From the NCBI GenBank assembly GCA_026418625.1, contig JAOABA010000004.1, positions 1-64,000 on the forward strand: 64,000 nt of DNA, given 5' to 3'. Below, one piece after another: positions 142 through 12,875 of this stretch (position 1 is its first letter; each line of letters begins with the position of its first letter). The translations under genes and the position numbers were made by a program. The notes under the pieces are model-generated. The model had not been told where the DNA came from. It did not search any database and was given only the letters and a program-made list of their open reading frames with translations. The stretch is from Candidatus Kapaibacterium sp. (lineage in GTDB: Bacteria; Bacteroidota; Ignavibacteria; Kapaibacteriales; UBA2268).

Positions 142-463
142 GAAAACAAAAATTTTTATTAAAAATAATATTTTTTTAAATTAGTGGATAAATTTTATTA
201 GAATAGCTAAGAATATAATAATTAAAATAATTTATATATTAGTTATTTGAAATAGAAACGATTTATCCTTCATAAAACTATTGACCATTTATTTTAGTAA
301 TAGTTTTTCCAAAAAGACTGTCTTATAAAAATTATTTGATCCCTATAGAGATTTACAAATTGATATAAGAATCTTAATACTTCAAATCTAATGTCAGAAA
401 AAAACAAGGAAAATCAATCCAAAATAAAATTTTTTAAATATTTTTTTCTATTTGGGAGGATTT
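142..463. other. AT-rich intergenic region between the IS end and the T9SS cargo gene
   Basis: About 320 bases without a credible gene. The only recognisable piece is AAGACTGTCTTA at 314-325, which resembles sequences at 37693-37706 and 62183-62198 and recalls IS1182-type terminal repeats. I see no convincing promoter. The end of the region carries GGGAGGA (454-460), the ribosome site of the next gene. Confidence 0.5.
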
Positions 464-1936
464 ATGAAAAAATGTTTCTTAATGTTGTTAGTTGTTTTAT
501 TAGCTCTTTCAAATTTATTTTTATATTCTCAAGCACCCGATACTATGTGGACACGGATGTTTAAAGCAACCGGAGGAATGTTTAGTGGAATGGCTATTTC
601 AAAATTTGCCAAACAAACACCTGATGGTGGTTTTATTGGTATTGGATATTCTGTTCATCCATTTCTGATGGCACATATTATTAAAACTGATGCTATTGGA
701 AATAAGCTTTGGCAGAAAGAATATTTTGATAATTACAATAAAGGGACTCTAACAGTAAGTAGTGCAGCACAAATAAGTGACAATAATTACATTATTGCTG
801 GTTATGGAAATATTCTTCAAGACAAAGGTTTGTTTCTAATTAAAATTGATTCAAATGGAGATACTCTCTGGACGCAATTTTACAATCATCAGGATTCAAT
901 TGTTATTACAAAGGAGATAAAAATATCAAGTGATAAAGGATTTATACTAACAGGGACAATAGCTCCTTTGATTAATGCAGATCAAGCAAATGTATTTTTT
1001 ATGAAGACCGACGAATATGGAAATATGCAATGGTCTGATAGGTTTGGTTTAGAAAATATTTTTGATGATGGATATTCTGTCGAAGAAAGCTATGATGGAA
1101 ATTATTTAATTGCTGGTAAAACTGGTATGCCATCATCTGAAGATACTATTTTTGTTATTAAAGTCGGTACTAATGGTTCATTGATTGACATTAAAATTTT
1201 TGGTGATGAACCTGATATTAAATATCCCTCAGAAAATATAAATTTATTCAAGACATCTGATAGAAATTATATGCTTGCAGGTCACGATGGTGGAGATATT
1301 CATTTAATTAAACTTGATCAAAATCTTAAAATTTTATGGCATAAAGTCTGGGGAAGTGAAAATATTGAGACCGCAAATAACATAATTGAAACAAGAGATG
1401 GTGGTTTTATTGCAGTTGGTAAAATTAATCTCGAATGGCCACCCAATTCTGGTAATGGAAAATATTTCCCCTTGATAGTCAAATTTAATAGTAGCGGAGA
1501 GTTTGTTTGGGATAAAATTATGTATAATGAATTTGATGGAGACTTTCACTCTATCAATCAAAATTCTGATGGTGGATTTATCGTTGGCGGTCAGCAAAAA
1601 GATAATCAAGCTTTTGACCATTTCTATATGGTTCGTTTGCTTGGCGATGGTAATTATGTTAATGATATGAATTCATCTGATTTCCATCTCGAAATTTCAC
1701 CAAATCCAGTTAGTAATGATTTAAAAATAGGTTATAATTTAACCAAAACCGACAAAATTAAAATAAGTATAGTTGACTTTTTTGGACGAGAATTGATGTT
1801 ACTAAAAAATTCAATTAATATTGCCGGATCGCATTATATCCAAACTGACGTGAGCAATCTATTATCAGGAATTTATTATTTTGTCTTAAAAAATGATGAA
1901 AAAACGATTATCCAAAAATTTATAGTTGTAAAGTAA
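464..1936 (+). CDS. Secreted seven-repeat (propeller-like) protein with T9SS type A sorting domain
   Basis: A 490-residue exported protein of unknown function. The ATG at 464 is preferred over the in-frame TTG at 452 because GGGAGGA lies directly before it. Residues 1-23 form a Sec signal peptide (KK, then a hydrophobic core ending in YSQ). The body holds seven related motifs of the kind DGGF-I-x-x-G (for example DGGFIGIGYS, DGNYLIAGKT, DGGFIVGGQQ), about 50 residues apart, with LW/W strands between, which suggests a seven-bladed propeller. The last 80 or so residues (ISPNPVSNDLKI, IVDFFGREL, LLSGIYYFVL, final KFIVVK) form a Por/type A C-terminal domain. In the family this domain directs export through the type IX system and attachment to the cell surface. 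A terminator follows, so it is probably monocistronic. Confidence 0.85.
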   Translation: MKKCFLMLLVVLLALSNLFLYSQAPDTMWTRMFKATGGMFSGMAISKFAKQTPDGGFIGIGYSVHPFLMAHIIKTDAIGNKLWQKEYFDNYNKGTLTVSSAAQISDNNYIIAGYGNILQDKGLFLIKIDSNGDTLWTQFYNHQDSIVITKEIKISSDKGFILTGTIAPLINADQANVFFMKTDEYGNMQWSDRFGLENIFDDGYSVEESYDGNYLIAGKTGMPSSEDTIFVIKVGTNGSLIDIKIFGDEPDIKYPSENINLFKTSDRNYMLAGHDGGDIHLIKLDQNLKILWHKVWGSENIETANNIIETRDGGFIAVGKINLEWPPNSGNGKYFPLIVKFNSSGEFVWDKIMYNEFDGDFHSINQNSDGGFIVGGQQKDNQAFDHFYMVRLLGDGNYVNDMNSSDFHLEISPNPVSNDLKIGYNLTKTDKIKISIVDFFGRELMLLKNSINIAGSHYIQTDVSNLLSGIYYFVLKNDEKTIIQKFIVVK

Positions 1937-2166: not shown

Positions 2167-5100
2167 ATGAGAGAAAACGAACCTATTATTATATCTGCTA
2201 AACAAGCTGAAGACTCTGTTTTTTGCTTTCTTGGAGAGTTTGGCTACGAGATGATTTCGTGGCTACCTTACCTCCTTTTTTTGAAGCAAAACTTAAATAT
2301 CAAGCTTCACACAGTCAGTAGGAAAGGCTCTAAACCATTTTATTATTTTTCTGACGAACACTTCGAAGCTGAGCCTTCTCTAATAGGCGATATGTGGGGT
2401 GACACAAAGCACTATAATCAACTCGCTTCAATCTTTCCCGGAAGGCTTCTTATTCATCCCGGTCCTGACTTCATTAATCAAAGAAAGATAATAATTGAAG
2501 GGAAAGAATGGACAAATAACAACATACATACTATTATTAACCAAAAAAATTATTCTGTCCCGGATTTTTCCGGAAATAATATTAAGCTTCCTTTTGAAAT
2601 TCAAAAACCATTTATAGTAATCAATAATAAGTTTTTCCGCCAATGGTATCAAAAATACAAAGGTCCAATAAATTATTTCAGACGAGAAGATTTAGAGGAA
2701 ATGAGAGATATTCTCCAATCTCTCGGTTATTCCATTGTTTATAATCACTTTGTTGAGCAGACTTCTTATGACCAGTTTTTCGATTTAAACGATAGGGACA
2801 TTTTCGGTAAGGACAGTCATTCCGTGAATTTAGCTGACTTTTACAAAAACTTAGATGCAGAAGGTAGAAATATTCTACAACTTTCGGTCTATAATAACGC
2901 TGAATTTGTTATTGGTCCTCAGGGTGGCAATCTTTATCTTCCTGCAATATGCAAAAAGGATTTATGGATTTTAATGCGAGACGGCGAATATCTTGATTAT
3001 CTTGAATTCGGGCGACTTTATGGAATTAACGTCAATATTTTTTATGAACCTGCCCATATTTTGGCTTCAATTAAATATTTCAACGACAAACAAAAGCTCA
3101 AAAACACAACTCAAAAAGCTATAGAAATTGTTCACAGTGCTTACACAGGTATAGTTAAAGAAGATAAATCTGAAATACAGCCATTAATTTCAATTTGTAT
3201 TTTTACTTATAACAGAGGAAATTTAATTGCCGAAACAATCCAAAGCTGCCTTGAACAAAGTTATAATAATTTTGAAATAATTATTGCAGATGATGGTTCA
3301 ACCGATAACACCGCAGAAGTTGTTAAATCATTTAATGATGCAAGAATAAAGTATTTTTATAAAGCTCACACTAACGCTCCTGACACAAGGAATTATGCAT
3401 TGAAACACGCAAAAGGAGATTATATCATATGGGTTGGTAGCGATGATATATTAGACAAATCAATTTTAGAAGAATATGTAAATACTCTGAAAAGCTTTCC
3501 TGACGCAGACATCTTGTATTGCAATCTTCAAAGCTTTGATAATCAGGGAAACAAAGGCATTTTTCTATCATATCAGGAATGGTATGGCAGAAATCCCGAA
3601 ATGCTTGCTTTCCTATTCGAAGGCTCTCCAATTGCTGACGGTGGCACATTAATTAAAAAATCAATTTATGATGAAGTTGGGCAATATAACACCGAATTCA
3701 CTCGTGCTCAGGATTATGAATTTTGGTCTCGAGTTGTTCTTTCCCAAAAATTCAAAGCAAAATATGTTAATAAAACACTTTACTACTACAGAATTCACGA
3801 TGGAAATTTAACTGGTCATCTGAACGAGAAGACGGACTTTTCTTTCGAACGCAAGATTTTGCAAAATGTAATTGATAAAGCAGGTTTCGAGAAACTATTC
3901 TTGGATTTCAGCTGGAATATTGACTATGATTATAACCTTTCTATGGCTTATCTGAAAGCAGGTCTGAAATTCCTCGAAAGGCAGGGAGTTATCGAAGGCA
4001 TTAATTATATCTCACAAAGCATTGAAATTTATCCCGATGCTGAAAAATTCAAGCTTTTATCTGAAATTTATTTGAGACTAAATCAATTTGAACCTGCTAA
4101 AACCATTCTAACAGAAGCATATAAACAATTTCCCTATGATGAATGGATTATCAGCAGGCTTCAAGGTTTGGGAGTTGATCCTTCCTCTATTACAATTAAC
4201 TATCAATTAGACGAGGTTGCTAAAGATGAATTGGAAGATTTTGTTAATATTTGTATTGTTACATATAACCGCCTCGAATTTACAAAGCAGTGTATTGATG
4301 GTATTCTAAAACACACTGATTACCCTTATGTAATAACAGTTGTTGATAATAATAGTCAGGATGGAACAAAGGAATATTTGAAAAAATTAAAAGATGAAGG
4401 CAAAATCAAAAACCTTGTTCTTCTGGATGAAAACATTGGTGTTGCAAAGGCTTCCAACCTCGCTTGGAGTCTTGAGCCTAATGCAAAATATTATATGAAA
4501 CTTGATAATGACATTGTCATACAGAAACCAGCTTGGCTCTCTGCAATGATTAATGTCGCTGAGAACGTTCCAAAAATTGGAGCATTAGCCTATAATTTTG
4601 AACCAAAATCTTATCCAATACAAATTATCAATGGCTTTAAAATTAGGATTAAAAACCCTCACAATCTTGGCGGTGCCTGTATTTTGATTCCCAAAAGAAC
4701 AGAAAAGCAACTTGGCTATTGGTGCGAGGATTATGGTCTTTATGGCGAGGAAGATGCTGATTATGGAATCAGAATTCATTGTGCAGGACTCTTTAATGCA
4801 TATATGGAAGATGAAAACATCGGTATTCATCTCCCCGCAGGAAAAGCTGGAGTTATTGACCCCTATACTATGTTCACAAAAGATGGAATCGAAGAAAGCG
4901 AAGACAGAGAATATAGGCTTTTCAAAGATGAAAGCAGGAGAAGAAATGTTAGCAATGGTGCATTTACTAAAAACTATAATGATTATATCGCTCGAAAGAA
5001 AAGTTTGTTTGTTGATTCTCTATTCGCAAAATCTTTTGATATTAGTAAATATCTATATAAGAGTGATAACCAAGAAATAATTGAAGAAAATATTACTAAT

Positions 5101-8100
5101 ATAATCTCCTCCAGACAAAGCCTAACAGAATTCGAATTGGAGTCCAATAAGAAAGCTTTCCTGCCAATTCTTTTAAATGTTATAAATCAGCTAAACCCGA
5201 AAAATATCGTAAGCATTGGAAATTTCAATTATGACTACCTCGAACCAATATGTCTGGCAAAAGAAAAATTAAATCCAAATTTGAAAATATTAGCTTTTGT
5301 TTTAGAAGATTTGGATGTTTCTGCCATTGAAGACAAAATTCAGAGATTAGAAAACAAATTCCCTAATTATATATCATTTTTCAAAAATACTTTCTTCGAA
5401 GCCTTGATTGGTCTTGATGATAAAAGTGCGGATTTAATAATTTTCGATAGTTTAATAAAAAATGAAGACCTTGATTTTTATATAGATTCAATTTTGCCAA
5501 AATTATCCAATTCAGGATTAGTGATTTTACCAAATACTAATATCAGCCTCTCAAACGAAACAAATTGGAAGTCTTGGCAAAAACTTACTTGGGATTTTGA
5601 AAATATTGAGTTTGATTTTGGTGGTGGTTTTGGGTTAATATTTCCTAAAAATCAAAGCAATAAATTAAAGAATTATCTGAACGATTTGAAATCAAATAAA
5701 CATATTTATACTGAGAGATTCAGAGCTGAAGCATTTAAGCTTTCTTCAAAACAAGATTTATCAAACACCGAATACAGTTCCGATATTGAAAAATTCGAAA
5801 AAGTGCTTGATTATCTCGAAAAGACACAAATAGCAATGTCACGTCTTGATTATAGCTCTGTTAATCAACTTGAAAAAGAGTTTATTAACTTATTTCCAGA
5901 TAGCCCATTTGCCTATTTAACAAGTGCAATCATCAAAAGACATAAAAATGAACTAAATGAATCCGTCAGATTAATAGAGCAGGCAAGAGATTTATTTGAA
6001 ATTCCTGAAGTTATTTACGAAATGAAAGTGATTGCCGGCTCAAAAGGAAATGTTGAAAAATCAAGAGAAATAAATGATTATATTCAATTAAAATATCCTG
6101 ATTGGAATTTCTCACCCTCCGATTCAGACTATATTTCACTCATTTTTTCTTCGGCAATCGAAAGATTGAAGCAACTGAAGAATAACTTTAATGATGCTTC
6201 ACAAAAAATTGAACTAAGTAAAATTCAAGAATTTAATACATCCGCATCGACTAAGATAAAAACTGTTAAGATTGGTTTCCTCTCAATAGAATATCACAAT
6301 AATGCCTGTCCTGTAATTAGATTGATAACTCCATTGAAAAGCCTCGAAAAAGAAGGCTTTGGTTATCAATGGATTGACGTTGGGGAATTGATTGACGGTA
6401 AACTTGAACCAAAAATCGAAAATATTTTATCGCTCGATATACTAATTATTCAGCGTCAGATTTGTGGATTAATACCCTTCAATGCCCTGAAGAGCCTCAT
6501 TAAGGAAAAGGATATTAAAATTGTCTTCGAAATTGATGATGCACTGACGGATTTGCCATTCCATCATCCACATTATCTACATTTCGAACGGTTCAGACCA
6601 TTTATATATGAATACATTAAAAATGCTGATTTAGTTACTGTTTCCACCGAAGGATTAAAAAAGCTATATAGTTCTCATTCGGATAAAATCGTTGTTTTAA
6701 AAAATTATTTCTCTAAGGAATTAATCACAAAGAAAGTTGAATTTCCCAGATATAGCGATGGTCCTGTTAAAATTCTATTCAGCGGAACTATTACCCACGA
6801 ACCGGATTTTAAAGAGATTGAAGGAGTATTGAGAAGAATTCTAAATGAATTTGGCGAAGCTGTTGAACTTCTGATGTGGGGCGGAACGACTTTTTCCTCT
6901 TTAAGTCAACAAAAAAATGTCAGAATTATTGATGAATTCTATAACGATTATTATGATTATCTGAAAAGACTTCAAACCATCGAAGCTGATTTTGCTGTTA
7001 TACCCTTGAATGACAACACTTTCAACCGTGCAAAATCGCACATTAAATGGGTTGAATACTCCGCCTGCGGTATTCCCGGTATTTATTCAAATGTTGGTGA
7101 ATATTCAGTAAGTATTAAAAATGAAGTTACAGGTATCCTTGTTGATAATAACTACGAACAGTGGTATAGCGCAGTTCGAAGATTTATTGAAGATGAAAAT
7201 TTCAGGGAAAACATTGCCAAAAATGCCTATAATACAGTTCATAACGAGTTCACTATCGAAAATAACTGCTATTACTGGGATAAAGCTTATAGATCCATTC
7301 TATCCTTCGGAAAAAATGAGACATTTGAAGAACCTAAGAGCACAATCGAATCTTCAATAATAATTCCCGTTCATAATCAACTTCATTATACCAAAAATTG
7401 CCTTGAGGGGCTCTTTAAAACAGTTGATTTATCAAAAGTTGAAATAATCATTATTAATAATGCCTCGACAGACGGGACAGGGGAATATTTGCAGTCTCTT
7501 GGCAACCGTATAAAAGTCATAACCAATCAGGAAAATCTTAACTATTCAAAAATTAATAATCAGGGAGCAAAAATAGCTTCAGGAAAATATCTTATCTTTC
7601 TGAACAATGACACCTTGCCACTACCCGGTTGGTATGATGAAATAATAAAAGAGTTCGAAGAAAACCAAGATACGGGTATTCAGGGAGCGAAACTTCTTTA
7701 TGAAGATGGAACAATACAACACGCCGGAATGGTCTTTGGTTCAATGCCAAATAAGGATGATTCACCATTCCACGCTTACGTTAAAGTTCCTGCTGATTTC
7801 CACTATGCCAATCTAAGGAGGCAATTCCAGTTTGTTACAGGAGCTTGCCTCGCTATCCGAAGTGATTTGTTCGGACAGATTGGTGGATTTGACGAAGGAT
7901 ACGATTTTGGTTGGGAAGACACAGATTTGTGTATGAAAGTTAATCAAATAGGGAAAAAAGTAATCTATAATCCAAAGGCAGTTCTTTATCATTATGAATC
8001 CGGAACGAAGGTGTTAAAGGAAGAGGCTATGAACGACTTCCTTTTGCCTCAATCTTCTCGTGATATAAAAAACAGACTTCATTTTATGGACAAATGGTCT

Positions 8101-11100
8101 CAATTTGTTAAGAAAGATGCTGATGAATTCTTCCGAAATGACGGGTTTAAACTCGAAAACGGGATGCTTTTCCCGATAAATATGCAGTCCGCTCAACTCA
8201 TTAGAGAGATAACTAGTAATAAAAACCTGACAAGCTTCTCATCATCTTTCTGGAACTTCAATTATGAAAACGGTAAGAATATCCTCATAAGAATTACTCC
8301 TGCTTTTGGCGATGCCCTTATGATGACATCTATAATACATAAAATAAAGTCCGATTTCCCGCACATTGACATTTATGTTTCAGGTGCTCAAATCATCGAA
8401 TCTGTTTTCGAGGGAAATCCAGATATAAAAGAATTTATAATTAAAGACAGCGATGAAGAAAGAAGGCTTATCTCAAACATTGACAGAATTCTTGATTATA
8501 ATAATTTGATTGCGAATTTGCCGGAATATTACAACGGACTTCATTTTATGGATATCCTCGCTAATATTGCAGGTATAAAGCTAAATTCTAAGGAATTAAT
8601 ATATAACATCACAAACGAAGAAATCAATTGGGCTGAAAATGTAATTAATAATTTTTCCAATGGAAGCAAAATTATTGGGCTACAATTAATTACTAATAAA
8701 GATACAAAACGGTCTTATCCTTATGGGAATGAATTACTTACTGAATTAAGAAAGCGATATCCTGAATATAAATATATTCTTTTTGGACTTCACGAAAATT
8801 ATGGTAATGGGGCTGATACCTTAAACTGCGGTGAAAAAGGATATACATTTCGTCAGCAGGTAGCCTTGGCAAACTTTTGTGATTCATTCATCACAATAGA
8901 TAGTGTCTTCTTCCACGTTGCCCATAATTTACTCAAAAAACCTACTTTATTAATTGCCGGACTTACTAATCCTGCTTTGATAGGCAATTATACTGCCGGT
9001 TTTTCAGTTATCAGAAATAATTCTCTTGACTGTCTCAATTGTTATTGGACTAAAAAATGTAATATAGAATGTATGAATCAGCTAAGTCCTGAGATAATTG
9101 CTTCTGCATTTTCAAACATTGAGAATACAAGATACACCCCAGATTCTTTTGAAATTATAGATGTTAAATTGAATTGGAACACAGATTACCAGAAATCAAT
9201 TTATGATTTCTTTGCAAATTATTCAAATAAGAACAAATCATTAAGGCTAATTGACCAAGATGGAATTCTTCCAAGCCATTCACTCAATTGGAATGGTATT
9301 GAAATTAGGTATTCTCCGGCAAAAACAGAGCAACTAAGCTTTGATTTTTCCTCGAATGTCACTTCTTTTGAAAAACTTGAAATAATACAAAAACCGAAAG
9401 AAATAAAGAAAACCGACAAAAAATTAAATGTAGTTTGGGAAGGCTCTCAATTTGTTTATCATTCACTGGCTCTAATAAATAGGGAACATTGCTCAAACTT
9501 AATTAACGTTAAAGATGTTGAATTAACTATTATACCCTACGAGCCAGAGACATATTTGCCCGAGAAAACCAAGAAAAACGATGACTTAATAAAGCACGAC
9601 ATTCGTTTCAAGGAAAAAGTTGATGAGTCAATTTCCAAGCTGCCTTATGTCTGGATTCGGCATCAGTGGCCCCCCCAATTTCAGCCTCCAAAAGGAGCAA
9701 AATGGATAATTATGCAACCTTGGGAATTCTCTACTTTGAGAAAAGATTTTGCTGATCTTTTTAATCAAGCTGACGAAATTTGGACCCCTAGCAATTACTC
9801 CCGACAAAGTTTTATTAATTCAGGTGTTGATTTTAACAAAGTTCAAGTCATTCCAAATGGCATTGACCCAGAAATATTCAAACCAACAGGTGATAAATTT
9901 GAACTTAAAACCAACAAAAAGCTGAAATTCCTATTCGTCGGTGGAACAATTTTCAGAAAAGGCATTGATATATTATTAAATTCTTATGCTTCAACTTTCA
10001 ATTCTTATGATGATGTCTGCCTTGTAGTCAAGGATATGGGCGGAGACTCGTTTTACAAAGGTCAAACGGCAAAGGAACAAATTGAAATATTGAAAGTTAA
10101 ACCAAATTCACCTGAGATTATCTACATTGATAATGCTTTAACTGAATTAGAAATGGCTTCTCTTTACAGAGCCTGCGATGTTTTCGTCTGTCCTTATAGA
10201 GGTGAAGGATTTTCTCTACCCACATTAGAAGCAATGGCGTGCGGTTTGCCTGTTGTTGTTACAAAGGGAGGCTCTACCGATGACTTTACTGATGAAGATA
10301 TTGCTTGGTATATTCCTGCAATGAAGCGTTCAATAGGAAATGTTATTGATGGTCATCAATTAACAGGTGAAGCTTTTGTGCTTGAACCGGAACAAGATGC
10401 TTTAAGTGATATTTTGAGAGAAATATATAACAAACCATCAGCAATTAAACTTAAAGGTATCCTTGCCGCACAAAAGGCAAGAAACCATTGGACTTGGAAA
10501 AGAGCCACTTTGAAAGTGCTCTCGAGATTAGATGTTCTTTATGACTTTAATCTTGCATCTGAAAATGAGAAGATTCTTTCTGATGAAAAAAATGAAATTG
10601 ATGACTTCCTGAATGCAGAGTTTGAATTTCAATCTAAAAATTATAAAAAAGCCGAAGAATTATTCTTAAAGGCTGTAAGCTCTGATAATTCTGATTTACA
10701 ACATAAGATTCACTCCTATTTGCGGCTTGCGGAGATGAATATTATTAAAAAAGATCTCGAAAATTCCTTGAATTTCATCAAAGAAGCAGAAAAGCTTAAT
10801 AACGATAACACTGACGTAAAATATATAAAATCAAAATATTTAGCTCTAACTGGCAATGACACAGAAGCTCTTGAGTTATTAACAGAGTTATTTAATGAGT
10901 GGAAAACAAGGAAATTCGAAACTTTTTTAGGAATAACGCTTGATGATTTACTGACTGACACAGCTGATATTTTTCTATCTTTCGAAGATGCTGAATCAGC
11001 TCTCAGTCTTTATACAGAAGCTTTAAAGTATAACACAACAAATGCAAGAGCCTGTCTCGGTGCCGGAAAATGCTTTTTAACAGTTTTAGCTTACGAAGAG

Positions 11101-11196
11101 GCTCAAAAGATGTTGGATTGGGCAAAAAAACTCGATCCAGATCTATCGGAAGCCTCTATTTTGCTCGAGGATATTTTAGAGAAACAAGCCGTTTAG
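2167..11196 (+). CDS. Giant multi-module glycosyltransferase, 3009 residues
   Basis: One uninterrupted frame joins several sugar-transfer modules. Approximate modules by residue: 10-320, a GT61-like domain (GEFGYEMISW; GPQGGNLYLP); 340-570, GT2 (DDGSTD 375-380, GSDD 424-427); 600-670, TPR-like; 693-960, GT2 (DNN 727-729, DND 780-782, EED 861-863); 1000-1170, a weak Rossmann/methyltransferase-like domain; 1200-1340, TPR-like; 1369-1700, GT4-like (EYSACGIPG near 1630); 1729-1960, GT2 (NND 1813-1815, WED 1916-1918); 2039-2310, GT9/heptosyltransferase-like (GD 2048-2049, Cys 2289, 2292, 2298, 2302); 2420-2790, GT4 with E-x7-E (E2680, E2688); 2815-3000, TPR. No membrane segment or signal peptide is visible, so it is probably cytoplasmic. 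It may assemble much of a surface glycan on one chain, but substrate and product are unknown. Confidence 0.85.
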   Translation: MRENEPIIISAKQAEDSVFCFLGEFGYEMISWLPYLLFLKQNLNIKLHTVSRKGSKPFYYFSDEHFEAEPSLIGDMWGDTKHYNQLASIFPGRLLIHPGPDFINQRKIIIEGKEWTNNNIHTIINQKNYSVPDFSGNNIKLPFEIQKPFIVINNKFFRQWYQKYKGPINYFRREDLEEMRDILQSLGYSIVYNHFVEQTSYDQFFDLNDRDIFGKDSHSVNLADFYKNLDAEGRNILQLSVYNNAEFVIGPQGGNLYLPAICKKDLWILMRDGEYLDYLEFGRLYGINVNIFYEPAHILASIKYFNDKQKLKNTTQKAIEIVHSAYTGIVKEDKSEIQPLISICIFTYNRGNLIAETIQSCLEQSYNNFEIIIADDGSTDNTAEVVKSFNDARIKYFYKAHTNAPDTRNYALKHAKGDYIIWVGSDDILDKSILEEYVNTLKSFPDADILYCNLQSFDNQGNKGIFLSYQEWYGRNPEMLAFLFEGSPIADGGTLIKKSIYDEVGQYNTEFTRAQDYEFWSRVVLSQKFKAKYVNKTLYYYRIHDGNLTGHLNEKTDFSFERKILQNVIDKAGFEKLFLDFSWNIDYDYNLSMAYLKAGLKFLERQGVIEGINYISQSIEIYPDAEKFKLLSEIYLRLNQFEPAKTILTEAYKQFPYDEWIISRLQGLGVDPSSITINYQLDEVAKDELEDFVNICIVTYNRLEFTKQCIDGILKHTDYPYVITVVDNNSQDGTKEYLKKLKDEGKIKNLVLLDENIGVAKASNLAWSLEPNAKYYMKLDNDIVIQKPAWLSAMINVAENVPKIGALAYNFEPKSYPIQIINGFKIRIKNPHNLGGACILIPKRTEKQLGYWCEDYGLYGEEDADYGIRIHCAGLFNAYMEDENIGIHLPAGKAGVIDPYTMFTKDGIEESEDREYRLFKDESRRRNVSNGAFTKNYNDYIARKKSLFVDSLFAKSFDISKYLYKSDNQEIIEENITNIISSRQSLTEFELESNKKAFLPILLNVINQLNPKNIVSIGNFNYDYLEPICLAKEKLNPNLKILAFVLEDLDVSAIEDKIQRLENKFPNYISFFKNTFFEALIGLDDKSADLIIFDSLIKNEDLDFYIDSILPKLSNSGLVILPNTNISLSNETNWKSWQKLTWDFENIEFDFGGGFGLIFPKNQSNKLKNYLNDLKSNKHIYTERFRAEAFKLSSKQDLSNTEYSSDIEKFEKVLDYLEKTQIAMSRLDYSSVNQLEKEFINLFPDSPFAYLTSAIIKRHKNELNESVRLIEQARDLFEIPEVIYEMKVIAGSKGNVEKSREINDYIQLKYPDWNFSPSDSDYISLIFSSAIERLKQLKNNFNDASQKIELSKIQEFNTSASTKIKTVKIGFLSIEYHNNACPVIRLITPLKSLEKEGFGYQWIDVGELIDGKLEPKIENILSLDILIIQRQICGLIPFNALKSLIKEKDIKIVFEIDDALTDLPFHHPHYLHFERFRPFIYEYIKNADLVTVSTEGLKKLYSSHSDKIVVLKNYFSKELITKKVEFPRYSDGPVKILFSGTITHEPDFKEIEGVLRRILNEFGEAVELLMWGGTTFSSLSQQKNVRIIDEFYNDYYDYLKRLQTIEADFAVIPLNDNTFNRAKSHIKWVEYSACGIPGIYSNVGEYSVSIKNEVTGILVDNNYEQWYSAVRRFIEDENFRENIAKNAYNTVHNEFTIENNCYYWDKAYRSILSFGKNETFEEPKSTIESSIIIPVHNQLHYTKNCLEGLFKTVDLSKVEIIIINNASTDGTGEYLQSLGNRIKVITNQENLNYSKINNQGAKIASGKYLIFLNNDTLPLPGWYDEIIKEFEENQDTGIQGAKLLYEDGTIQHAGMVFGSMPNKDDSPFHAYVKVPADFHYANLRRQFQFVTGACLAIRSDLFGQIGGFDEGYDFGWEDTDLCMKVNQIGKKVIYNPKAVLYHYESGTKVLKEEAMNDFLLPQSSRDIKNRLHFMDKWSQFVKKDADEFFRNDGFKLENGMLFPINMQSAQLIREITSNKNLTSFSSSFWNFNYENGKNILIRITPAFGDALMMTSIIHKIKSDFPHIDIYVSGAQIIESVFEGNPDIKEFIIKDSDEERRLISNIDRILDYNNLIANLPEYYNGLHFMDILANIAGIKLNSKELIYNITNEEINWAENVINNFSNGSKIIGLQLITNKDTKRSYPYGNELLTELRKRYPEYKYILFGLHENYGNGADTLNCGEKGYTFRQQVALANFCDSFITIDSVFFHVAHNLLKKPTLLIAGLTNPALIGNYTAGFSVIRNNSLDCLNCYWTKKCNIECMNQLSPEIIASAFSNIENTRYTPDSFEIIDVKLNWNTDYQKSIYDFFANYSNKNKSLRLIDQDGILPSHSLNWNGIEIRYSPAKTEQLSFDFSSNVTSFEKLEIIQKPKEIKKTDKKLNVVWEGSQFVYHSLALINREHCSNLINVKDVELTIIPYEPETYLPEKTKKNDDLIKHDIRFKEKVDESISKLPYVWIRHQWPPQFQPPKGAKWIIMQPWEFSTLRKDFADLFNQADEIWTPSNYSRQSFINSGVDFNKVQVIPNGIDPEIFKPTGDKFELKTNKKLKFLFVGGTIFRKGIDILLNSYASTFNSYDDVCLVVKDMGGDSFYKGQTAKEQIEILKVKPNSPEIIYIDNALTELEMASLYRACDVFVCPYRGEGFSLPTLEAMACGLPVVVTKGGSTDDFTDEDIAWYIPAMKRSIGNVIDGHQLTGEAFVLEPEQDALSDILREIYNKPSAIKLKGILAAQKARNHWTWKRATLKVLSRLDVLYDFNLASENEKILSDEKNEIDDFLNAEFEFQSKNYKKAEELFLKAVSSDNSDLQHKIHSYLRLAEMNIIKKDLENSLNFIKEAEKLNNDNTDVKYIKSKYLALTGNDTEALELLTELFNEWKTRKFETFLGITLDDLLTDTADIFLSFEDAESALSLYTEALKYNTTNARACLGAGKCFLTVLAYEEAQKMLDWAKKLDPDLSEASILLEDILEKQAV

Positions 11197-11273
11197 AATA
11201 GATTTTTTAAGCTGAATTTATTTGAATTTCTTATATTTATTTTCTATTCGAAAGTATTATTAGATTTTTGTTT

Positions 11274-12875
11274 GTGAAATTTAAGTTAAAAATATTTCTG
11301 TTTTTCTTATTAATTCTTGCACCAGCTGTATCTTTGTATTCTCAGCAATTTATTAGAAACTTTGGCATAAAATCCGAAATTTCTTTTCTCAATTATAACT
11401 ATAATTTCAAATCAATACCCAATATTCCAAGACCTGAAATTCCTTTGACAATTTCAAACAACAAACCTGTCCTTGGATTTGGAGGATTAATTAGTTTCAA
11501 CCTTACTGATGATTTTTTCCTATCTTCATCACTTCTCTATTCAAAATCCGAATTAGACTTTCAGGATTTGGAAAATGTTACGGTCATCGTTCAGGGTGAA
11601 CCAATTGATGCTATAATTCGACATAATCTTGAAACCGACATAAATAATCTTGAAATTTCTCTTAGTGCGGGTTATCGTTTTTTTAAAGCAATAAATTTAT
11701 CATTTGGAATTGGTCTAAATTTCCCGATTTCAACATATATCAATCAAAATCAAACCATCATTTCCCCAGAAAATTTAAATTTTGTATTTCCGATTGGAAA
11801 TCACGAAGGAAAAATCAATAATCTAAGTAGTTTGGTTTTTGTTCCTAAGGCAACCTTCTCACTTGATGAAAACAAATTATCCATTGGTAAAATCGGAATC
11901 TCTCCGGAAATTTCATTTAAATTTTCACTAAATAGCTATTTAACTTCTGCTGATTGGAAATTTTCTGCTATAACTGCAGGTGTTAATCTACTATTCATTA
12001 ACAAGACTGAACAATCTATAAGATATGACACAACGCTAACACGAGATACAATAACCAATTTCAGCACACAGATAACTACTGAAACTTTACAATTAAGAGC
12101 AAGAAATATCATTTACGACACACTATTATCGGATAACTCTATTGCTTATATTACAAATATTAAAGAGACTTACGAACGCCAAATTCCCAAACCTTTACCA
12201 ATTTTAAATGGTGAATTAAAGACTGTTTTCGTTTCTGATGATGGAACTGAGTCAGTTGAACAAGAAATTGAGTATATTAAAAATATCTATCAGATACATT
12301 ATTTTGAAAAGAGAGGAAAGCAAGAAAGACTTACAAAAAAACTTGACACAATAAGCTCCTTAAACATTCCATTTATTAGATTTTATCCCTCCGCTTTCAG
12401 TGAAGCAGGATTACAAGAATGGCAAATTAAAATTTCATCCGATAATCAAATAATTAAAACATTCTTAGGGTATGATGCTACTCCGAAATTAGTAAACTGG
12501 TATCCCTATGAAAACAATAAAAATATTGAATTTAATGATATTAAATTCAAATACGAGTTCATTATCAAAGACTACGAAGAACAAGAAATAACAGTTAGCA
12601 CCGGAGAAATAAACTTCAAAAAAAGCCTTAAAGGAGAAAAAATTAATAAAATTATTCTGATTGCAATAGAACCCACAAAAATTAACGACAACAATTTCAA
12701 GAAGCTGTTTTCCAATCTAAGAAAACAGAAAAAAGTTGTGCTTTATTATCCTTTTTTAACCGGTGTTGAGGATTTAATAAAACCGGATTTTATTACAGAA
12801 AAAAATGAAGAAATGATTCAAGTAATTTCGAGAATTAACAATCGTAATAATTTGATAATTATAGGAATAATCTAA
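11274..12875 (+). CDS. Exported protein with probable outer-membrane beta-barrel, function unknown
   Basis: 533 residues from the GTG at 11274 (an in-frame TTG lies at 11268). The N-terminus has lysines followed by a hydrophobic stretch ending in SLYSQ, a clear signal peptide. Residues 25-240 alternate polar and hydrophobic residues with many aromatic girdle-like positions, as in PorT/OmpA-type barrels (SAGYRFF, LSFGIGLNFPI). The remainder contains Ig-like strands and a C-terminal alpha/beta stretch (KINKIILIAIEP) reminiscent of a periplasmic domain, but I do not recognise the family. The start lies 77 bases after the giant glycosyltransferase gene, so the two may be co-transcribed. No sorting domain is seen at the C-terminus. 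Confidence 0.6.
   Translation: MKFKLKIFLFFLLILAPAVSLYSQQFIRNFGIKSEISFLNYNYNFKSIPNIPRPEIPLTISNNKPVLGFGGLISFNLTDDFFLSSSLLYSKSELDFQDLENVTVIVQGEPIDAIIRHNLETDINNLEISLSAGYRFFKAINLSFGIGLNFPISTYINQNQTIISPENLNFVFPIGNHEGKINNLSSLVFVPKATFSLDENKLSIGKIGISPEISFKFSLNSYLTSADWKFSAITAGVNLLFINKTEQSIRYDTTLTRDTITNFSTQITTETLQLRARNIIYDTLLSDNSIAYITNIKETYERQIPKPLPILNGELKTVFVSDDGTESVEQEIEYIKNIYQIHYFEKRGKQERLTKKLDTISSLNIPFIRFYPSAFSEAGLQEWQIKISSDNQIIKTFLGYDATPKLVNWYPYENNKNIEFNDIKFKYEFIIKDYEEQEITVSTGEINFKKSLKGEKINKIILIAIEPTKINDNNFKKLFSNLRKQKKVVLYYPFLTGVEDLIKPDFITEKNEEMIQVISRINNRNNLIIIGII

Follow-up and report, generated by a model that had tools for sequence, protein, structure and literature searches.

The open reading frame (ORF) P0001 of Candidatus Kapaibacterium sp., located in the 64,000-nucleotide stretch of contig JAOABA010000004.1 analyzed here (hereafter the window), carries about six conserved glycosyltransferase (GT) modules on a single chain and probably encodes a multi-enzyme that builds an O-linked glycan on flagellin, and possibly also on other filament or cap proteins. 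This proposal is drawn from sequence comparisons centered on the constant C-terminal end of the protein, a GT4 domain (GT4B) followed by tetratricopeptide repeats (TPR), hereafter the core. An earlier note on the same DNA had described the multi-module chain without recognizing that its constant part is this GT4-TPR end or that it is linked with flagellin. The window is the start of its contig, in a 3.3-Mb genome that is 96% complete.

Across 38 loci of the order, the P0001-type gene had no conserved neighbor; flippase, polymerase, and nucleotide-sugar genes are thus not conserved next to it. As the order-level neighborhood showed nothing conserved, phyletic co-variation was examined, using the full sets, with two families only, flagellin (marker PF00669) and PF02397, a general polysaccharide-initiation family. 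The core and flagellin were scored in the same 294 genomes of the class. The core was found in 50 of them, with one copy in nearly all, and flagellin in 118; flagellin was present in 49 of the 50 core-positive genomes versus 69 of the 244 core-negative genomes (Fisher p 8e-22). Among the nearest 60 genomes, 43 contained both, one the core only, five flagellin only, and 11 neither (p 1e-7). PF02397, tried as a co-varying polysaccharide marker, was detected in 58 of these 60 genomes, with or without a P0001-type gene, and does not follow the gene.

Core and flagellin are both absent from one genome (G025) and both present in another genome of the same genus (G266). Other joint absences were observed in two families (f2 and f7), in one genus (g44) of a third family (f9), and in a single genome (G039) of a fourth (f5). 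Rod proteins were also missing in G025, G036, G041, and G171. Sister lineages have lost the core and flagellin together. Moreover, two other families of the class include four genomes (G080, G153, G156, and G308) whose giant GT gene lies 2-3 kb before flagellin and FliD. The giant GT gene is followed there by another gene, of 504-527 aa (GT2-like in G156), then by one or more flagellins and FliD. Pfam matches confirmed the identity of flagellin and FliD in three of these four loci; in G153 homology did so. In a fifth genome (G040), flagellin was found 5.4 kb downstream of the giant GT gene. The P0001 genome itself contains four flagellin-family matches and has a flagellin-FliD cluster away from the P0001 locus; flagellin frames of this genome are located at L158:8705-9640, L158:9667-10602, and L157:10113-11069.

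Several observations weigh against a role in flagellin glycosylation. The Fisher p-values are inflated by shared ancestry, which they ignore, and we therefore placed weight equally on the separate joint absences and on co-location. P0001 itself and the genes of most of its relatives in the order are not located beside flagellin. Sixty-nine flagellated genomes of the class were without a core match at the cut-off used, so that the core is not needed for flagella in general. Conversely, G268 encodes a 3358-aa relative (L147:7733-17809, - strand), and neither flagellin nor a rod protein was found in this genome; its lineage may use the enzyme for something else. Other exceptions are G027, where flagellin is absent and the sole match is 30% identical, and three genomes with flagellin-type matches but no core (G037, G048, and G297), of which G048 has kept short flagellin-like frames.

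The P0001 frame is real and maintained. Its nearest named relative belongs to a 'Candidatus Kapabacteria' metagenome-assembled genome, with 80% identity across the last 1480 residues. In the sole genome of the same genus, the homologue consists of open frames covering residues 1-943 and 1530-2997, each ending at a contig end, with 81-83% identity to P0001, and the joins between neighboring modules in these two parts are likewise on open frames. Codon comparison with this genome gave ratios of non-synonymous to synonymous substitution rates (dN/dS) of 0.03-0.12, indicating purifying selection on every covered module; both tests apply to residues 1-943 and 1530-2997, the interval between which contains the methyltransferase-like region and the first part of GT4A. 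These open frames and ratios make a frameshift artefact, which the earlier note had named as one outcome that could overturn it, very unlikely. A broader version of the same objection, that separate genes were wrongly joined by assembly or read-through or that the gene is degenerate, could draw on split versions in two relatives (L078 and L098) and on a probable frameshift in a third (G004), but a 9-kb frame without stops, with the same joins open in the same genus and under selection, is hardly compatible with it. We consider it highly improbable, and it has already been largely refuted by the open homologous frames.

GT2, GT4, and GT9 modules are typical of lipopolysaccharide (LPS) and exopolysaccharide (EPS) pathways, and P0001 could instead assemble a lipid-linked oligosaccharide, for an O-antigen, an exopolysaccharide, or the general O-glycan of Bacteroidota. 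Distant relatives of the N-terminal domain (domain 1) are solo genes in glycan-gene loci of other families of the phylum, where their neighbors, identified by eye, include a polysaccharide flippase, a fucosyltransferase, a GT4, an acetyltransferase, and an ABC exporter. Bacteroidota O-glycans are also made on a lipid carrier and have species-specific outer glycans (PMC12871550). However, none of the 38 loci showed a conserved neighbor of any kind, including the wzx flippase and GT genes of the Bacteroidota general O-glycosylation locus, and the gene follows flagellin, while PF02397 is present regardless. For these reasons, the earlier suggestion of an assembly line for one repeat unit is the weaker reading, and we regard lipid-linked assembly as unlikely, and less likely than flagellar glycan assembly.

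Still less probable, in our opinion, is that another exported protein is glycosylated, for example the upstream protein sorted by the type IX secretion system (T9SS) or the downstream outer-membrane protein, and that the link with flagellin is indirect, through lifestyle. The domain matches of these two neighbors (Table 1) and the absence of detected flagellar genes in G268 are in favor of this possibility. Yet, apart from the downstream neighbor within the genus, neither is conserved beside the gene in other genomes, and the gene directly precedes flagellin and FliD in four relatives. Flagellin glycosylation remains the favored function.

Whole-chain Pfam analysis of P0001 detected three Glycos_transf_2 stretches (E 5e-71 overall), two Glycos_transf_1 stretches (9e-28), and TPR_19 (9e-12), and the modules were additionally scanned singly against Pfam (Table 1).

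Table 1. Features of P0001 and its flanking genes. Positions are those of the window and residues those of P0001.
Feature	Residues	Position	Strand	Basis or remark
Upstream gene with Por_Secre_tail (T9SS C-terminal sorting domain)		452-1936	+	just upstream of P0001
P0001, multi-glycosyltransferase ORF, 3009 aa		2167..11196	+	ATG start, no internal stop
Domain 1, GT-B fold, GT9-like	1-312	2167..3102	+	AlphaFold2 model, structural matches
GT2A	333-585	3163..3921	+	PF00535, 106 bits
TPR1-like spacer	586-688	3922..4230	+	weak, TPR_14 E 0.002
GT2B	689-975	4231..5091	+	PF00535, 55 bits
Methyltransferase-like region, doubtful	976-1230	5092..5856	+	Methyltransf_24, 25.3 bits, below cut-off of 26.3
Spacer 2	1231-1390	5857..6336	+	without Pfam TPR match
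GT4A	1391-1725	6337..7341	+	PF00534, 43.5 bits
GT2C	1726-2000	7342..8166	+	PF00535, 94 bits; belongs to recurring GT2-GT9-GT4-TPR tail
GT9 module	2001-2330	8167..9156	+	homologue profile, invariant residues
Four-cysteine cluster	C2289-x2-C2292-x5-C2298-x3-C2302	9031..9072	+	invariant in 7 homologues
Linker, 78 residues	2331-2408	9157..9390	+	site of S-adenosylmethionine (SAM) methyltransferase in most relatives
GT4B, constant family core	2409-2795	9391..10551	+	PF13692, 64 bits; E2680-x7-E2688
TPR3, helical repeat tail	2796-3009	10552..11193	+	TPR_19, 47 bits
Downstream ORF		11268-12875		weak outer-membrane beta-barrel match

The intact frame and the module profiles bear out the earlier description of a single covalently linked series of GT modules, a GT9 among them, of which about six are conserved, and the general loss of catalytic residues that could have overturned it was not observed, catalytic motifs being present in GT2A, GT2B, GT9, and GT4B and in variant form in GT2C and GT4A. 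All three GT2 domains were recovered, with acidic motifs that are intact, as had been claimed, in GT2A (D375/D376, G-S-D-D 424-427, and D516) and GT2B (D727, D-N-D 780-782, and E-E-D 861-863), but in a variant form in GT2C (N-N-A-S, N-N-D 1813-1815, and E-D 1917-1918), whose homologues in relatives are 35-59% identical. Similarly, both predicted GT4 modules match their profiles, and GT4B has the full E-x7-E motif, whereas in GT4A the first Glu is replaced by Ala and only E1630 is kept. The model of the C-terminal tail (predicted local distance difference test, pLDDT, 77) showed a confident GT4 fold for GT4B (MshA, Z 31.6) and, behind it, an extended series of high-confidence helical pairs corresponding to TPR3. 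Among the three TPR-like spacers that had been listed, only this one is strong.

The GT9 module alone matched PF01075 weakly, below the cut-off (E 0.003), but this family was matched by six of seven aligned homologues (best 3e-5), and a profile built from the seven sequences matched the solved GT9 enzymes 3tov (1e-5) and WaaF 1psw (7e-5). D2049 (GD), K2181/R2182 (K-R), and D2245 (D-S) are invariant and, together with the conserved cysteines, these matches corroborate the proposed heptosyltransferase-like domain with a four-cysteine cluster. A search of PHROGs with this module returned a single weak match, unannotated.

Domain 1, previously labeled GT61-like, contains the invariant motifs GEFGYE and QGGN, and gave no Pfam match at E <= 1 and no PDB sequence match. 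Its AlphaFold2 model (pLDDT 74.8, from five sequences) adopts a GT-B fold and is closest to GT9 heptosyltransferases, with WaaF 1psw as the best match (Z 17.2, root-mean-square deviation 3.7, 254 residues aligned) and TibC at Z 15.2; POMGNT2, which we take to be a GT61 enzyme, reached Z 9.9 only. The GT61 label is thus not supported. PHROGs, plasmid, and phage searches with domain 1 gave no homologue, nor did a plasmid search with the DNA of the P0001 gene. The possible methyltransferase domain has a profile match, but a subthreshold one; a single weak relative of this region among 196 other genomes of the class does not strengthen its identity, and neither a PHROGs match nor a comparable homologue was found.

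When P0001 was used as a query, 44 of the 60 near relatives were matched, nearly always through the GT4B-TPR end, and GT4B is 48-67% identical to most family-level relatives. Across a 395-genome sample of the phylum, the same cut-off gave 23 matches, all of them inside the class. The family has a constant C-terminal end, usually composed of a methyltransferase, GT4, and TPR, to which zero to many GT modules are added, with frame lengths of about 600-4531 aa, reaching 3664 aa in the taxonomic family of P0001 and 4531 aa in the class. A SAM methyltransferase precedes GT4B across most of the order. Short members (about 800-900 aa) consist of methyltransferase-GT4-TPR alone, and longer ones are extended N-terminally by GT2, GT4, GT9, and additional methyltransferase modules; one 3664-aa relative (L076:3723-14717, + strand) combines GT2 and GT9 with three GT4-type stretches and two or more methyltransferase domains. 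The linker of P0001 occupies the methyltransferase position of its relatives, since G005 and G013 read GT2-GT9-methyltransferase-GT4-TPR; in L076 and L082 the order is GT2-GT9-methyltransferase-GT4.

The GT2-GT9-GT4 tail recurs in at least seven other genomes (G005, G013, G021, G035, G038, G047, and G055), and domain 1 and GT2A occur together in G022 and G162, and in G032 as separate neighboring genes, while the full module order was seen only within the genus of P0001. Homologues split into separate genes, which the earlier note had considered damaging, do exist in two relatives: in G007 (L078) the chain is split between GT9 and methyltransferase-GT4B, and in G032 (L098) domain 1 is encoded on its own, by a 384-aa gene located 24 bp upstream of a multi-GT gene. 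Both splits are consistent with a modular family undergoing fusion and fission, and the enzyme is not refuted by them. Modules have thus been gained, lost, fused, and split during the evolution of the family. In the GT4B tree, GT9-tail forms and short forms each require at least two changes, and many forks are open; the tree is thus not resolved well enough to count module events or to decide on a single origin of the GT9 tail.

Other large or atypical frames were observed. In G004, the core GT4 is broken over two overlapping frames of 2294 and 428 aa (L118:1853-9999, - strand), probably by a frameshift, either real or due to an assembly error. The P0001 genome contains a second giant multi-GT frame (2018 aa; L163:1455-7511, + strand, contig C11), which includes two or more GT2 modules but not the GT4B-TPR core and stands in a same-strand gene run. 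Multi-GT frames without the GT4B core were also found in G019 (3744 aa; L087:1494-12728, - strand) and G033 (2623 aa; L100:8303-16174, - strand), both of which have a short core gene elsewhere. Finally, a methyltransferase-GT4-TPR member lies on a contig labeled Desulfobulbaceae (L031:9239-11779, + strand), reflecting mis-binning or transfer.

Modular flagellin glycosyltransferases are already known. FlmG, the flagellin O-glycosyltransferase of Caulobacter crescentus, resembles P0001 in joining TPR to a GT-B glycosyltransferase and in its link with flagellin, but is a 596-residue protein with an N-terminal TPR and a single GT domain, and the sugar it transfers is pseudaminic acid (PMC7591256). 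P0001, with its C-terminal TPR adjoining a GT4 and five or more further GT modules, is not a member of the FlmG family, although it may work like FlmG. Nor was it assigned to the Maf flagellin nonulosonic-acid transferases, as neither Pfam nor the 25 NCBIfam matches listed for P0001 included a Maf domain. The chlorovirus PBCV-1 proteins A064R (GT-GT-methyltransferase) and A111/114R (GT-GT-GT) also carry several GTs on one chain for one protein-linked glycan, but they have 638 and 860 residues, three domains, and no TPR mentioned, and act on N-glycans of the viral capsid protein (PMC9614988). The TibC/BAHT autotransporter heptosyltransferases, which glycosylate an exported protein, share with the GT9 module of P0001 a GT9-type GT-B fold and a four-cysteine site, which binds metal in TibC (PMC4358343). 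The module does not, however, belong to this iron-finger group, as the TibC cysteines (339, 342, 358, and 370) are spaced 2-15-11 rather than 2-5-3, and TibC, unlike P0001, is a single-GT dodecamer (PMC4358343). Flagellin-linked GT41-methyltransferase fusions and strain-variable GT sets have likewise been described in flagellin glycosylation islands of Enterobacteriaceae, which vary by separate genes, whereas the P0001 family varies within one polypeptide (PMC4875605). The flagellin GTs Fgt1 and Fgt2 of Pseudomonas syringae are encoded upstream of fliC and belong to an oligosaccharide pathway with a methylated sugar, with separate genes for the parts of the glycan and no giant chain described in the text consulted (PMC3927599). 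Among openly licensed papers, we found none on such proteins in this class, and none describing a giant single-chain GT family, class-wide or otherwise.

Three precedents led us to propose TPR docking, a GT4B reaction, and variable extension: bacterial flagellar O-glycosylation can proceed stepwise in the cytoplasm from nucleotide sugars (PMC12871550), the TPR region of FlmG alone binds flagellins while its GT domain alone does not (PMC7591256), and the GT, GT, and methyltransferase domains of A064R modify a protein glycan one after another (PMC9614988). P0001 would presumably be located in the cytoplasm and build the glycan on flagellin before export. GT4B and the TPR tail, with the methyltransferase in most relatives, would form an acceptor-facing constant end, in which TPR3 probably grips flagellin, by analogy with FlmG, and GT4B would add a conserved sugar to it. 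The growing glycoprotein would stay tethered while the variable N-terminal modules (domain 1, the three GT2, GT4A, and GT9) add sugars from nucleotide-sugar donors and extend the glycan, with methylation in the members having a methyltransferase. A change of modules would then alter the glycan while the same acceptor is retained. We infer flagellin as the acceptor in this species, together with the sugars, the transfer order, the direction of growth, and colinearity. The strict form of this scheme, an assembly line in which the GT4-TPR core would hold flagellin and prime it, with the N-terminal GTs acting in chain order, is a tentative and rather doubtful extension of it.

What appears new is the combination, class-wide, of a constant acceptor end and interchangeable GT modules in one chain. 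Flagellar glycans normally vary via islands of separate genes, whereas this class seems to vary one giant polypeptide. The length series of the family provides a natural experiment relating module number to flagellin glycan mass; if the mass tracks the modules, glycan structure would be readable from domain order, and tethered enzymes could replace a lipid carrier. Should the assembly line hold true, species would rewrite the glycan of their flagella through the gain, loss, or exchange of modules within one gene, and module order would predict sugar sequence, making these proteins a glycan counterpart of the modular polyketide and peptide synthases.

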